A stretch of 33,611 nt of DNA from Candidatus Woesearchaeota archaeon (GTDB lineage Archaea > Nanobdellota > Nanobdellia > Woesearchaeales > GW2011-AR9), in NCBI GenBank assembly GCA_018657475.1, contig JABHXC010000019.1, positions 1 through 33,611 on the forward strand, written 5' to 3'. Numbering within the stretch: position 1 is the first letter of the stretch; each line of letters begins with the position of its first letter. Below, one piece after another: positions 5,821 through 9,474 of this stretch. The position numbers were made by a program, and so were the translations under genes. A model generated the notes under the pieces. The model saw only the letters and a program-made list of their open reading frames with translations. It did no database searches and had not been told where the DNA came from.

Positions 5821-6366
5821 ATGAAAATCAAACAATGGCTTACCAATTCTGGGCAAGCAATAAAAGAGGTGTACAAAGCTTATGGCTACTGGTTAGTATC
5901 TATTTTTTTTATGATCTTTATTTTCATGATCCATGCGTTACTAATTAATTACAAACTACTATTTTCTGTTTTTTCAATAACACTTTGGTTAAAATTAACC
6001 GTGGGATTATTTAGTGCAATGGATCCTGTCTCCCTAATATTTTTATCAATAGTAGCCTTTTTTGGAAGTATGGTATTGTCCATGAGCATTTTCTTAGTTA
6101 AAAGACAACTTAAAGGGGGATTTAGTGCAGGTGGTACAGGGATATTAGTTGGCCTAATTGCACCAGCTTGCCCATCTTGTGCTTTAGGATTATTTGGAGT
6201 AATAGGAATTGGTGGCTTTCTAACAACTTTACCATTTAAAGGACTAGAATTTGGTATAGTGGGAGTTATAATCTTATTAGCTTCATTAGTATATCTTTCA
6301 AATAAAATTACCACACAAGTATGTATAATAAAAAAGAAAAGAAAACGAATATTCCGAATGCGTTAA
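5821..6366 (+). CDS. Multi-pass membrane protein with a CPSC motif
   Basis: I recognise no specific family. The 181-residue protein has about four or five hydrophobic helices (roughly 23-48, 68-93, 105-132 and 143-161) and a very basic C-terminus (KKKRKR), which predicts that end is cytoplasmic. A Cys117-Pro-Ser-Cys120 pair is preceded by IAPA, in a glycine-rich helix, much like a redox-active pair at a membrane surface. Its position just after the DsbA-like gene suggests it could recycle that enzyme, a role filled by DsbB or VKOR elsewhere, but it resembles neither by eye. A metal-transport role for the Cys pair is the main alternative. Its 3' end overlaps the next gene by 46 bases. Confidence 0.7.
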   Translation: MKIKQWLTNSGQAIKEVYKAYGYWLVSIFFMIFIFMIHALLINYKLLFSVFSITLWLKLTVGLFSAMDPVSLIFLSIVAFFGSMVLSMSIFLVKRQLKGGFSAGGTGILVGLIAPACPSCALGLFGVIGIGGFLTTLPFKGLEFGIVGVIILLASLVYLSNKITTQVCIIKKKRKRIFRMR

Positions 6367-6863
6367 CTACACTTCGTTTACTGTTAACGATCCCTTTAGT
6401 AATTTTAATTCTGCAAGAAAAATATTCCATAGCCATTATAGTGTTCATTTTGGGAGTACTTAGTGACGCTGACGGCACAGTAGCAAGAAAACTTAACCAA
6501 GCAACCAAATTTGGAGAGAAATACGACATTTTTGCTGATACTATCTTTGCAGTAGCTGCATTTATAACTTTGTTAATGGTAGGAAAGCTAAGTTTTTTAT
6601 TCATAACTATTTTATTTATAGCAAATATTCCTAGAATGATTTTCATTTATTTGTTCCAGAAGAAAAAAGAAACTTTTCATTCAAACTTTTTAACTAAATT
6701 GTCCGGAATTCTTTCTTTACTTATAATCCCTTCAGCATTATTATTTGAAAGCAGTGTAACTAATTATTATATCGTTGCTATAGCACTATTTACTTTTATT
6801 GTTACTTTGCCCTATATAATAATTTACACAAAAGTCACTTCTCAACCAAAGAAATCTTCTTAA
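6321..6863 (+). CDS. CDP-alcohol phosphatidyltransferase family protein with shortened signature
   Basis: Predicted integral membrane enzyme that joins a CDP-activated lipid to an alcohol phosphate. The start (NIPNALTTLRLLLTIP) and about six hydrophobic helices are typical of PgsA-like proteins. The family signature D-x2-D-G-x2-A-R-x8-G-x3-D-x3-D is present except at its beginning: the sequence reads SDADGTVAR, one residue shorter than the usual SDxxDG spacing, so Ser takes the place of the first metal-binding Asp. The rest (AR, G at +8, D, D) is intact. It overlaps the upstream gene by 46 bases and no later start preserves the first helix. It also overlaps the convergent AsnB-Dph6 gene by 29 bases. 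The substrate is unknown; archaetidyl lipids are expected in archaea. Confidence 0.85.
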   Translation: MYNKKEKKTNIPNALTTLRLLLTIPLVILILQEKYSIAIIVFILGVLSDADGTVARKLNQATKFGEKYDIFADTIFAVAAFITLLMVGKLSFLFITILFIANIPRMIFIYLFQKKKETFHSNFLTKLSGILSLLIIPSALLFESSVTNYYIVAIALFTFIVTLPYIIIYTKVTSQPKKSS

Positions 6864-8901
6864 TTTTTAATCTACCCGTAAAAGAATTTTCCATTACTTT
6901 TTCAAAATCTTCAATAACTAATTTTTTCTTGAACAAAGGACAATCTGTAACAAAACTTTCCATCTCGCCACCTTCTCCTCCGACATGTAATCCATTTTTA
7001 GCATTAATTTTTTTCAATTTAACAAGATCATCATTATCGATCTCTTTCCCTAAAAAACTTTTGTTTAATCCATCACCGGCAATTGCAGTAAATATGAATT
7101 TAAAACCTAATTGTAATAACTCTTCCATTTCTTTTTCTTGTGGTTTATGCCATAATGGAGAAAATATCTTCAATCCTAAATCATCACAAATTTTTTCAAT
7201 TCTATTTCTTTGATATGTGGAAAAGATAGCTCCTGTAACCACCCCTTCAATCTGAAATTCTTCCTTAGCTTTCTTTAAAGCAATAATCAAATCATCTAAT
7301 TCTTTTTCTTTTTTACCTTCAGTATCTTGAAAAATTATAGGTAGTCCCATAGCTTCTGCTTGATAAGAAGCCAACTCAATAGCAGGAGTATGAAACATGT
7401 AAGAATCTTTATTAGCAGATTTTAATGTAATTAAACATGATAAAGAATAATTCTGTTGTTGCATGATGTATGCAGCATAAGTAGAATCTTTCCCTGAGGA
7501 AAATAACACTCCTAATTTTAAATTATGTTGTGGATAAAATTGTCGCAAATATGCAGATTTAGTTAAACCATTTTTCTTTGATAATTTTCCTAGTGCATTA
7601 TCAATCCTGGATCCATATTGTGCCGCTACTTTCTTCCTTAGTGCAAATACTTCAGGAATCCCTTCAGATAAAGCAATTTCACGAAGAACCATCTTTGTTT
7701 TTTCATCTACTATTTTGTACTGTTCGGGAATTTTAAGAGCATAACTCACCAGTTCTTTATCTAAAAATGGCAAACGTAATTCTAAATTGTTCGCCATGGT
7801 TAAAACGTCATCTCTGTACAAATCTCTTTCATACATTTTTAATAACCCTGAAACACATTCCTGATTAATGTTACTAGACTTTTTATGACGATCATATCCA
7901 GCAAAAATTTCTTCACTTCCTAAACCAGAAAATAATACTTTACATCCATCTTTTTTGGCTTCTTCACATGCTAAATAAAATGTTAAAGCTACCCCTACTT
8001 TAACAACATTTGAATCTTCAATTAATGGAACAATCTTTTCTAAGTATGAAGGGATGTCTTCTTGTTTAATTGTAATCACTTTAAGATCCAAATCCAATTC
8101 CGCGGCAACTTCCCTAGCAGAAACTAAATCTTTTGGTACAACACCATCTGTTTCTAAAGCAACTGTGTAACAAGTAAATTCATATTTCTCATTTTTCAAG
8201 TAATTTGCAATGTATGTGGAGTCAATACCTCCAGAAAATAATAAACCTAATTTCTTTCCAGGAATTCTTTTTTCAATAGCTTTATGTAACAACTTCTGTG
8301 TTTTATTAAGTATATCTTCTTTGCCAATATCTAATTCAGGCAAGTAATGAAAGAATTCTCTTTGTTTTTCTGTAATAGTTTTGGTTTCAATGTCATAAAC
8401 GATCATTTTTCTGGGGTTCAACTCTTGTACATGTAGATAATTTAATGAATCTAAAACTTTCATTTCAGAAGCAAAAGAAAAATGTTCAGTAGTTATAGAG
8501 AACCACAATGGTTTTATTCCTAAAATATCTCTAACAATAAACACTTTTCCTTCATTGTAATAAGCAAAAGCAAAAACGCCATCTAACTCTTCAATTTTTT
8601 CTAAACCAAACTTATCTAAAAATCCTAATAACAATTCTGCATCATTTTTTGCAGGCAATAAATACTTTTCACTCAATTCTTTCCAGTTATAAATTTCACA
8701 ATTAGCCACTAATGTTCCTTTTCCTTGTAAAGGCTGTTGAACATGCCCTACAATTGAATGTAATGTGTGACCAAAGTAACTATTCTTAGAAATTTCAGTA
8801 AAACTCTGTCCATCTTTCCCTCTTTCATGTAATAACTTTAATGCCTGAGCTACTTGTTTCTCTGCCTCAAGATGTCCAATTACTCCAATAATACCGCACA
8901 T
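6835..8901 (-). CDS. Asparagine synthetase B fused to diphthine-ammonia ligase (Dph6-like)
   Basis: This 688-residue protein has three domains. Residues 1 to about 190 form an N-terminal-nucleophile glutaminase with Cys2, the oxyanion Asn67 and Asp87. Residues about 195-435 form an asparagine synthase with SGGIDS at 223-228 and the motif LELRLPFLDKELV. Residues about 460-688 are a second PP-loop domain with SSGKDS at 468-473 and GGEGGE at 641-646, the hallmark of the Dph6/ATP_bind_4 family that amidates diphthine on elongation factor 2. The obvious inference is that glutamine-derived ammonia could serve both synthetase sites. By eye the Arg that holds the glutamine carboxylate in E. coli AsnB (Arg49) appears to be Leu here. 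TTTTAAAA at 8923-8930 supports a leaderless ATG. Confidence 0.92.
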   Translation of the reverse strand: MCGIIGVIGHLEAEKQVAQALKLLHERGKDGQSFTEISKNSYFGHTLHSIVGHVQQPLQGKGTLVANCEIYNWKELSEKYLLPAKNDAELLLGFLDKFGLEKIEELDGVFAFAYYNEGKVFIVRDILGIKPLWFSITTEHFSFASEMKVLDSLNYLHVQELNPRKMIVYDIETKTITEKQREFFHYLPELDIGKEDILNKTQKLLHKAIEKRIPGKKLGLLFSGGIDSTYIANYLKNEKYEFTCYTVALETDGVVPKDLVSAREVAAELDLDLKVITIKQEDIPSYLEKIVPLIEDSNVVKVGVALTFYLACEEAKKDGCKVLFSGLGSEEIFAGYDRHKKSSNINQECVSGLLKMYERDLYRDDVLTMANNLELRLPFLDKELVSYALKIPEQYKIVDEKTKMVLREIALSEGIPEVFALRKKVAAQYGSRIDNALGKLSKKNGLTKSAYLRQFYPQHNLKLGVLFSSGKDSTYAAYIMQQQNYSLSCLITLKSANKDSYMFHTPAIELASYQAEAMGLPIIFQDTEGKKEKELDDLIIALKKAKEEFQIEGVVTGAIFSTYQRNRIEKICDDLGLKIFSPLWHKPQEKEMEELLQLGFKFIFTAIAGDGLNKSFLGKEIDNDDLVKLKKINAKNGLHVGGEGGEMESFVTDCPLFKKKLVIEDFEKVMENSFTGRLKIKKISLVEK

Positions 8902-8982: not shown

Positions 8983-9474
8983 ATGAGTCATGAAACACCT
9001 TCTGCAAAGTTAACTAGGCTGTTAACAAATTATGATCTTTTTGAAGAACCCGAGTATCCAAGAACATTTGAAACCCCTGGAAGTAGTATTTTGGTTCAAG
9101 TTGAAGAATGTTATTATTCACCAGAAACCGCCAGAAAAGATAACATAGAATTAACAAAACAAGATGCAAGAAATGTTATTGGTGTAAATGAACCTAAAAA
9201 GTATTATTTATCATCTTCATGGCTTAGAGTTTATGATGAAAAAACAGGAGAGGCAATTCTAGATGGGGGGTCTATAGAGGTTATTGCTAATGTTCTTTTA
9301 GATATTGAAGAAAGTGGTGATTCGTTTTCTTACAGCAGAACAAGAATGGTTACTCATGGCGATGTTGAAGATGGTTTTTATGCTATAGGTGGATTATCTA
9401 CAAAACAAGTAAACTCTTTAGACGCTGCGATTAGAAAAGAATTAGAAAAAAGATTCAACTTACCTAATATGTAA
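8983..9474 (+). CDS. Hypothetical 163-residue soluble protein
   Basis: Not recognised. The sequence looks like a compact alpha/beta protein. An acidic N-terminus rich in Pro, Glu and Tyr (residues 18-30) is followed by alternating strands such as SSSWLRVYDEKTGEAILDGG and a C-terminal helix (DAAIRKELEKRF). There is no signal peptide, membrane helix or cysteine cluster. TTAAATAA lies about 26 bases before the ATG. The 3' end overlaps the convergent DRG GTPase gene by 15 bases. No function is proposed. Confidence 0.7.
   Translation: MSHETPSAKLTRLLTNYDLFEEPEYPRTFETPGSSILVQVEECYYSPETARKDNIELTKQDARNVIGVNEPKKYYLSSSWLRVYDEKTGEAILDGGSIEVIANVLLDIEESGDSFSYSRTRMVTHGDVEDGFYAIGGLSTKQVNSLDAAIRKELEKRFNLPNM

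Follow-up and report, generated by a model that had tools for sequence, protein, structure and literature searches.

The locus analyzed here raises the question of why Dph6, the diphthine–ammonia ligase, is joined in one polypeptide to a module resembling asparagine synthetase. The window (33,611 nucleotides of contig JABHXC010000019.1 from a Candidatus Woesearchaeota archaeon) contains on its minus strand an ORF (6835..8901, stop codon included; all features below lie on this strand) that runs from ATG to stop without internal stops and encodes 688 amino acids.

Domain organization of the fusion protein

The 688-residue chain consists of a class-II glutamine amidotransferase (Ntn) domain (GAT; residues 1–185, 8347..8901), an AsnB-type PP-loop synthetase domain (SYN; residues 190–455, 7537..8334), and an intact Dph6 domain (residues 462–688, 6838..7518). 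Pfam assigns the three parts to GATase_7/GATase_6, Asn_synthase (PF00733, E 2.8e-46), and Diphthami_syn_2 (PF01902, E 6.5e-61). The NCBIfam model Dph6_archaeal (TIGR03679) is matched with 265.9 bits, above its cut-off of 197.3. Pfam, NCBIfam, and the uninterrupted ORF thus confirm the continuous three-domain frame described in the initial annotation. The frame begins exactly at MCGI, so that Cys2 (codon 8896..8898) can serve as the N-terminal nucleophile. The Dph6 part contains the PP loop S[GS]GKDS (SSGKDS, residues 468–473, 7483..7500), the YQ motif, and the EGGExE signature (EGGEMES, residues 643–649, 6955..6975), the residues of which have been named for Dph6 (PMC3541065).

A chance read-through or assembly join was rejected because 80 independent loci hold full-length or near-full-length relatives (44–63% identity) and because AlphaFold2 folds the entire chain. 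The neighbors of the fusion in the window include Drg and MscS genes, and two nearby ORFs (8983-9474, 163 aa, and 5821-6366, 181 aa) are without a Pfam or NCBIfam match. A scan for promoters and terminators returned fewer promoter-like sites than were found in shuffled sequences.

The architecture itself is not new, a point that the initial annotation omitted. An AsnB-DUF71 fusion with the same order of GAT-II, Asn_synthase, and DUF71 (Dph6) in one chain was described in three archaea, Methanohalophilus mahii, Methanosalsum zhilinae, and “Ca. Nanosalinarum” (PMC3541065). De Crecy-Lagard et al. (2012) proposed the glutaminase as ammonia source for both ligase domains, and a reviewer of that paper asked what role the AsnB-like domain has and which of the PP-loop domains takes up the ammonia (PMC3541065). 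The fusion in the window poses the same ammonia question. Whereas the 2012 account placed the AsnB domain in a few archaea, SYN belongs to a widespread clade with altered residues, and, unlike in that account, it also occurs without the glutaminase, without Dph6, or as a gene adjacent to dph6.

Structure models and related folds

AlphaFold2 (45 fusions) modeled the whole chain with a pLDDT of 92.5 and a pTM of 0.90. For SYN-Dph6 alone, the pLDDT was 92.0 and the pTM 0.77, a lower value that makes the orientation of the ligase domains without the glutaminase less certain.

The solved chains nearest to the fusion are Pyrococcus Dph6 and ASNS/AsnB. In Foldseek, the Dph6 half superposes on the archaeal Dph6 proteins PH1257 (PDB code 2d13) and PF0828 (PDB code 3rk1) with TM 0.94–0.95 by target; it shares ∼42% identity with them and keeps their signature residues, whereas PH1257 and PF0828 are free-standing proteins of 220–240 aa. 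ASNS/AsnB was matched across ∼510 columns. Like AsnB and ASNS (PDB codes 1ct9 and 6gq3), the fusion combines a GAT domain with the synthetase fold and possesses the catalytic Cys, the PP loop, and the catalytic Lys.

AsnB/ASNS as the best fold matches would suit a working, glutamine-dependent asparagine synthetase that has merely been joined to Dph6, as would a score above the equivalog cut-off of asn_synth_AEB (TIGR01536, 282.4 versus 267.1 bits). We rejected a simple asparagine synthetase as very improbable on the grounds of the residues, the tree, and two other AsnB genes of the genome, which are described below.

Diphthamide pathway and asparagine synthetases of the genome

The genome of the window (1.06 Mb in 81 contigs, estimated to be 100% complete) encodes a single PF01902 protein, the fusion itself. 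Dph5 was found, as was an EF2 whose AIHRG loop contains the modification-site histidine. Dph2 is encoded by two ORFs, an N-terminal frame of 91 aa and a C-terminal frame of 283 aa (G000 C13:1358-2357, L086/L087). With Dph2, Dph5, and EF2 present, the diphthamide pathway, the absence of which would have spoken against the initial annotation, is complete in this genome. By homology and genome context, the prediction that the C-terminal half of the fusion is a Dph6 is therefore well supported.

Two further Asn_synthase proteins of 610–620 aa carry canonical motifs. Of the independent asnB and dph6 genes that the initial annotation had named as counterevidence, the former are thus present as two intact genes, whereas a free dph6 is absent. 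Given two separate canonical AsnB genes, the AsnB half of the fusion is not needed for asparagine.

In most of the relatives checked, the dph2 halves lie on different contigs. Split Dph1/2 proteins have previously been reported in DPANN archaea (PMC6349945; PMC3655853).

Altered residues in the glutaminase and SYN domains

E. coli AsnB served as the numbering reference, and human ASNS (6gq3, PDB alignment) shows the same canonical residues. All 58 fusions have an intact set of glutaminase catalytic residues, Cys, Asn, and Asp (Cys2, 58/58; Asp98, 58/58). The loss of the Arg that binds the glutamine carboxylate, noted as apparent at the outset, is real: Arg49 is replaced by Leu, followed by an invariant His, in 58/58 fusions (HxLH; HTLH in the window, residues 45–48, 8758..8769). 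The canonical NGE reads NCE, again in 58/58 (residues 67–69, 8695..8703), and the second Thr of the acceptor-side stretch TTIR is a Lys in 57/58.

The PP loop of SYN (SGGIDST, residues 223–229, 8215..8235) is kept in all classes of the AAQ clade. Among 132 AAQ rows of all architectures, its S, D, and S are found throughout, and the second Gly is missing in two (SAG). E352 is conserved in 124 rows (Asp or Gln in the others) and K449 in 127 (Arg in the others). The catalytic Lys424 is retained within KKVAAQYGSR (residues 423–432, 7606..7635), which also holds the clade signature AAQYGS, a motif that canonical AsnB lacks. The Glu of the canonical SGEGSDE is replaced by Leu, Ser, or a similar residue in the 58 fusions, by Leu in the window (SGLGSEEIFAGYDRH, residues 325–339, 7885..7929). 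The same segment includes Arg338, present in 132/132 rows; together with AQYGS, this Arg is clade-specific, and the clade signature is [A/M]QYGS plus GY.R.

Unlike AsnB and ASNS, the fusion therefore has replacements of the glutamine-carboxylate Arg, of the aspartate-side residues, and of the Glu of SGEGSDE. Because the aspartate- and glutamine-binding residues are replaced throughout, the database name “asparagine synthase” is not supported for the SYN half. The suggestion in the initial annotation that the AsnB half was repurposed is supported by the two intact canonical AsnB genes elsewhere in the genome and by acceptor-side residues that are changed clade-wide.

The retained ATP-side residues suggest that SYN is an active ligase. 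By analogy to β-lactam synthetases, it would be a ligase that has taken on a different acceptor. β-Lactam and carbapenam synthetases (PDB codes 1mc1 and 1q15) adapted the AsnB fold to another acceptor, as proposed here for SYN; they differ in lacking Dph6, in acting on unrelated substrates, and in sharing only 16–19% identity. Their glutaminase is not used.

Architectures and distribution of SYN

The same fusion, which the initial annotation suggested seeking in other archaea, occurs in several archaeal groups among the 80 loci with relatives: Woesearchaeota/Nanoarchaeota, Methanosarcinaceae, Altiarchaeota, Diapherotrites, and Nanohaloarchaea. In 15 of the 16 fusion genomes reached via those loci, the fused Dph6 is the only one. 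The sole exception among the 16, a member of the Diapherotrites (G245, L064), encodes a free Dph6 of 236 aa alongside the fusion.

A SYN profile (E 1e-42) detected the domain in 176 of 236 genomes of the phylum, almost always as a single copy, and in a third phylum SYN was found in 59/73 genomes, in both long and short frames. The best 150 matches comprise 77 long frames (full fusions), 22 intermediate ones, and 51 free ones (<440 aa). Four architectures can be distinguished: GAT-SYN-Dph6, SYN-Dph6, GAT-SYN, and free SYN. The intermediate frames include SYN-Dph6 without a fused glutaminase, found at 11 loci (L123-L133), and GAT-SYN without Dph6, at L149, L177, and L179-L182.

We searched 10 SYN-Dph6 genomes besides G010 for a stray glutaminase of the clade type and found none in nine. 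The remaining genome (G034) has an ambiguous 289-aa glutaminase match, and in G010 a glutaminase frame lies just upstream. The glutaminase matches elsewhere in SYN-Dph6 genomes are frames sized like AsnB or other amidotransferases. At L126:4032-5925, the glutaminase and SYN-Dph6 appear as two overlapping frames, which may reflect gene splitting or faulty assembly.

Unfused genes are also linked. Both an unfused SYN and a listed free Dph6 could be placed in 37 genomes; in 7 of these, the two genes lie ≤1.1 kb apart, six of the SYN genes being <150 bp from dph6 and the seventh 1.0 kb away. At about a thousand genes per genome, we would expect ∼0.1 such proximities by chance. In Halobacteriota (L219-L221, L238, and L239), GAT-SYN and dph6 overlap as neighbors. 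In three of these loci (L221:5083-6636, L238:4458-6128, and L239:4802-6334), the glutaminase Cys is lost (MGRIAG), the PP loop reads SAGIDS, and the gene overlaps dph6. These glutaminases are probably pseudo-glutaminases that were retained beside Dph6.

Across the phylum, 173 of the 176 SYN-bearing genomes possess Dph6, and Dph2 is present in all three exceptions. Conversely, Dph6 occurs without SYN (at E 1e-42) in 51 genomes, and SYN is therefore not generally required for diphthamide. Only two genomes (G099 and G212) lack both Dph2 and Dph6, and SYN is generally missing from their family.

Free SYN lies mostly away from dph6, in a neighborhood of translation genes that features Drg, IF2, prefoldin, DUF371, and MscS as well as ribosomal genes. 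Since these, dph6 aside, are its recurrent neighbors, a linkage of SYN to other dph genes was rejected.

Phylogeny of SYN and a sister clade linked to gatCAB

We ran IQ-TREE in quick mode on 169 SYN domains, with SH-aLRT as the sole support measure; 62 of the 166 branches are weak. Canonical AsnB, represented by three sequences only, is split from SYN with an SH-aLRT of 98, which again argues against an asparagine synthetase, and the AAQ clade, to which the SYN of the window belongs, is recovered with an SH-aLRT of 96. Within the AAQ clade, at least four changes in glutaminase presence and at least nine in fusion to Dph6 can be counted.

Sequences carrying AMQYGS and GQGADELFGGY form a sister group that stands apart in the tree. 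Halobacteriota encode a SYN relative in 257/295 genomes (E 1e-35). Among 32 unfused Halobacteriota loci examined, 17 contain a gatA-like gene, which lies ∼1.4 kb downstream on the same strand among those listed. Genes of the AMQYGS type are located directly upstream of gatC-gatA-gatB at L203-L213, L222, L224, L227, L232, L233, and others, and in the sister-clade representatives checked the neighbors score above the gatC, gatA, and gatB cut-offs. A literature search on this link returned no title or abstract naming it.

Like SYN, the AMQYGS clade of Halobacteriota is either free or joined to a glutaminase and carries the GY.R and QYGS motifs. In contrast to the SYN of the fusion, it has a Gln in place of the canonical Glu (GQGADELFGGY) and is linked to gatC-gatA-gatB rather than to dph6. 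With AAQ genes next to dph6 and sister genes next to gatCAB, both groups adjoin enzymes that amidate carboxylates on components of translation. The position of the sister clade upstream of gatCAB, and not of dph genes, also means that SYN may serve another amidation.

SYN might alternatively act on a substrate of its own, for example a tRNA or a free metabolite, and have been joined to Dph6 through a common neighborhood while remaining functionally uncoupled from it. The usual surroundings of free SYN (Drg, IF2, prefoldin, DUF371, and MscS, with Drg and MscS also adjoining the fusion in the window), the many genomes that have Dph6 without SYN, and the association of the sister clade with gatCAB are all compatible with such a history. 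However, the fusion to Dph6 changes at least nine times on the tree, and the linkage recurs in at least three phyla, in fused as well as split-adjacent form, a pattern that would hardly arise in the absence of selection. We regard an uncoupled SYN as unlikely.

Role of the glutaminase

According to the published proposal (de Crecy-Lagard et al. 2012), Dph6 (and SYN) would amidate diphthine with ammonia released by the glutaminase, the AsnB half being mainly a source and conduit. The catalytic Cys, Asn, and Asp retained in 58/58 fusions and the compact three-domain model (pTM 0.90) are consistent with this proposal. However, the glutamine-carboxylate Arg is gone from all fusions, SYN-Dph6 occurs without a glutaminase, and at L221, L238, and L239 the AsnB-like gene still overlaps dph6 although the Cys has been lost (MGRIAG). 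Moreover, the PP loop of SYN is kept in nearly every member, which would be superfluous if ammonia alone mattered. We therefore consider ammonia supply a possible but rather unlikely explanation for the fusion.

The glutaminase has come or gone at least four times on the tree, with SYN remaining beside Dph6, so delivery of glutamine ammonia to Dph6 can hardly be the main reason for the fusion. The glutaminase-less forms likewise weaken the glutaminase as an essential link to Dph6. Ammonia supply is plausible where the domain exists, yet it appears dispensable. The initial annotation is thus supported in part: the fusion, the missing Arg, and the diphthamide pathway are confirmed and the repurposing is supported, whereas feeding of Dph6 by the glutaminase, possible where a glutaminase exists, is weakened as a core function by its absence or degeneration in many SYN+Dph6 members.

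Proposed function of the SYN-Dph6 pair

The repeated fusion and adjacency suggest that SYN and Dph6 cooperate. We favor, with about an even chance of being correct, the reading that the fusion is a Dph6 permanently accompanied by an AsnB-like module that has been repurposed and acts together with it. The Dph6 part would amidate diphthine on EF2 using ATP and ammonia. SYN is predicted to be an ATP-dependent ligase with an acceptor other than aspartate, and its target may be that of Dph6 or lie in the same step, be it EF2/diphthine or another translation-linked carboxylate. Where a glutaminase exists, its ammonia would reach SYN first, via the tunnel typical of AsnB, with overflow perhaps going to Dph6.

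The new element, judged from sequence comparison, is that SYN appears to be a separate, altered enzyme family that stays associated with Dph6 even after loss of the glutaminase. These natural experiments (glutaminase lost, PP loop kept, and genes split but adjacent) point to the synthetase-like domain, not the glutaminase, as the conserved partner of Dph6. Should SYN act on EF2, many archaea would make diphthamide with the help of an unrecognized component, and the sister family linked to gatCAB would become testable as well.

A possible eukaryotic counterpart

ASNSD1/YML096W/Tb927.3.4060 is an AsnB-like orphan found across eukaryotes (PMC3854871; PMC9140057). Among the papers searched, none combined ASNSD1 and diphthamide. 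With the SYN profile, a human ASNSD1 sequence scored 91 bits, below E. coli AsnB with 131 bits; it is no closer to SYN than E. coli AsnB, and a kinship based on profile score was rejected, so that ASNSD1 stays a lead. It is doubtful, though conceivable, that the AsnB-like half corresponds in archaea to ASNSD1/YML096W and that both belong to an ancient archaeal-eukaryotic amidoligase family in translation, with one branch at EF2 diphthamide and another adjacent to GatCAB. If this were true, the fusion would provide the first functional lead for ASNSD1 and would hint that diphthamide synthesis has an unrecognized step driven by ATP or a partner that handles ammonia. Human ASNSD1 appears to carry motifs resembling those of SYN and its relatives, namely HxLH, GxGADE..AGY.RH (AGYSRH), and AMQFGSR.
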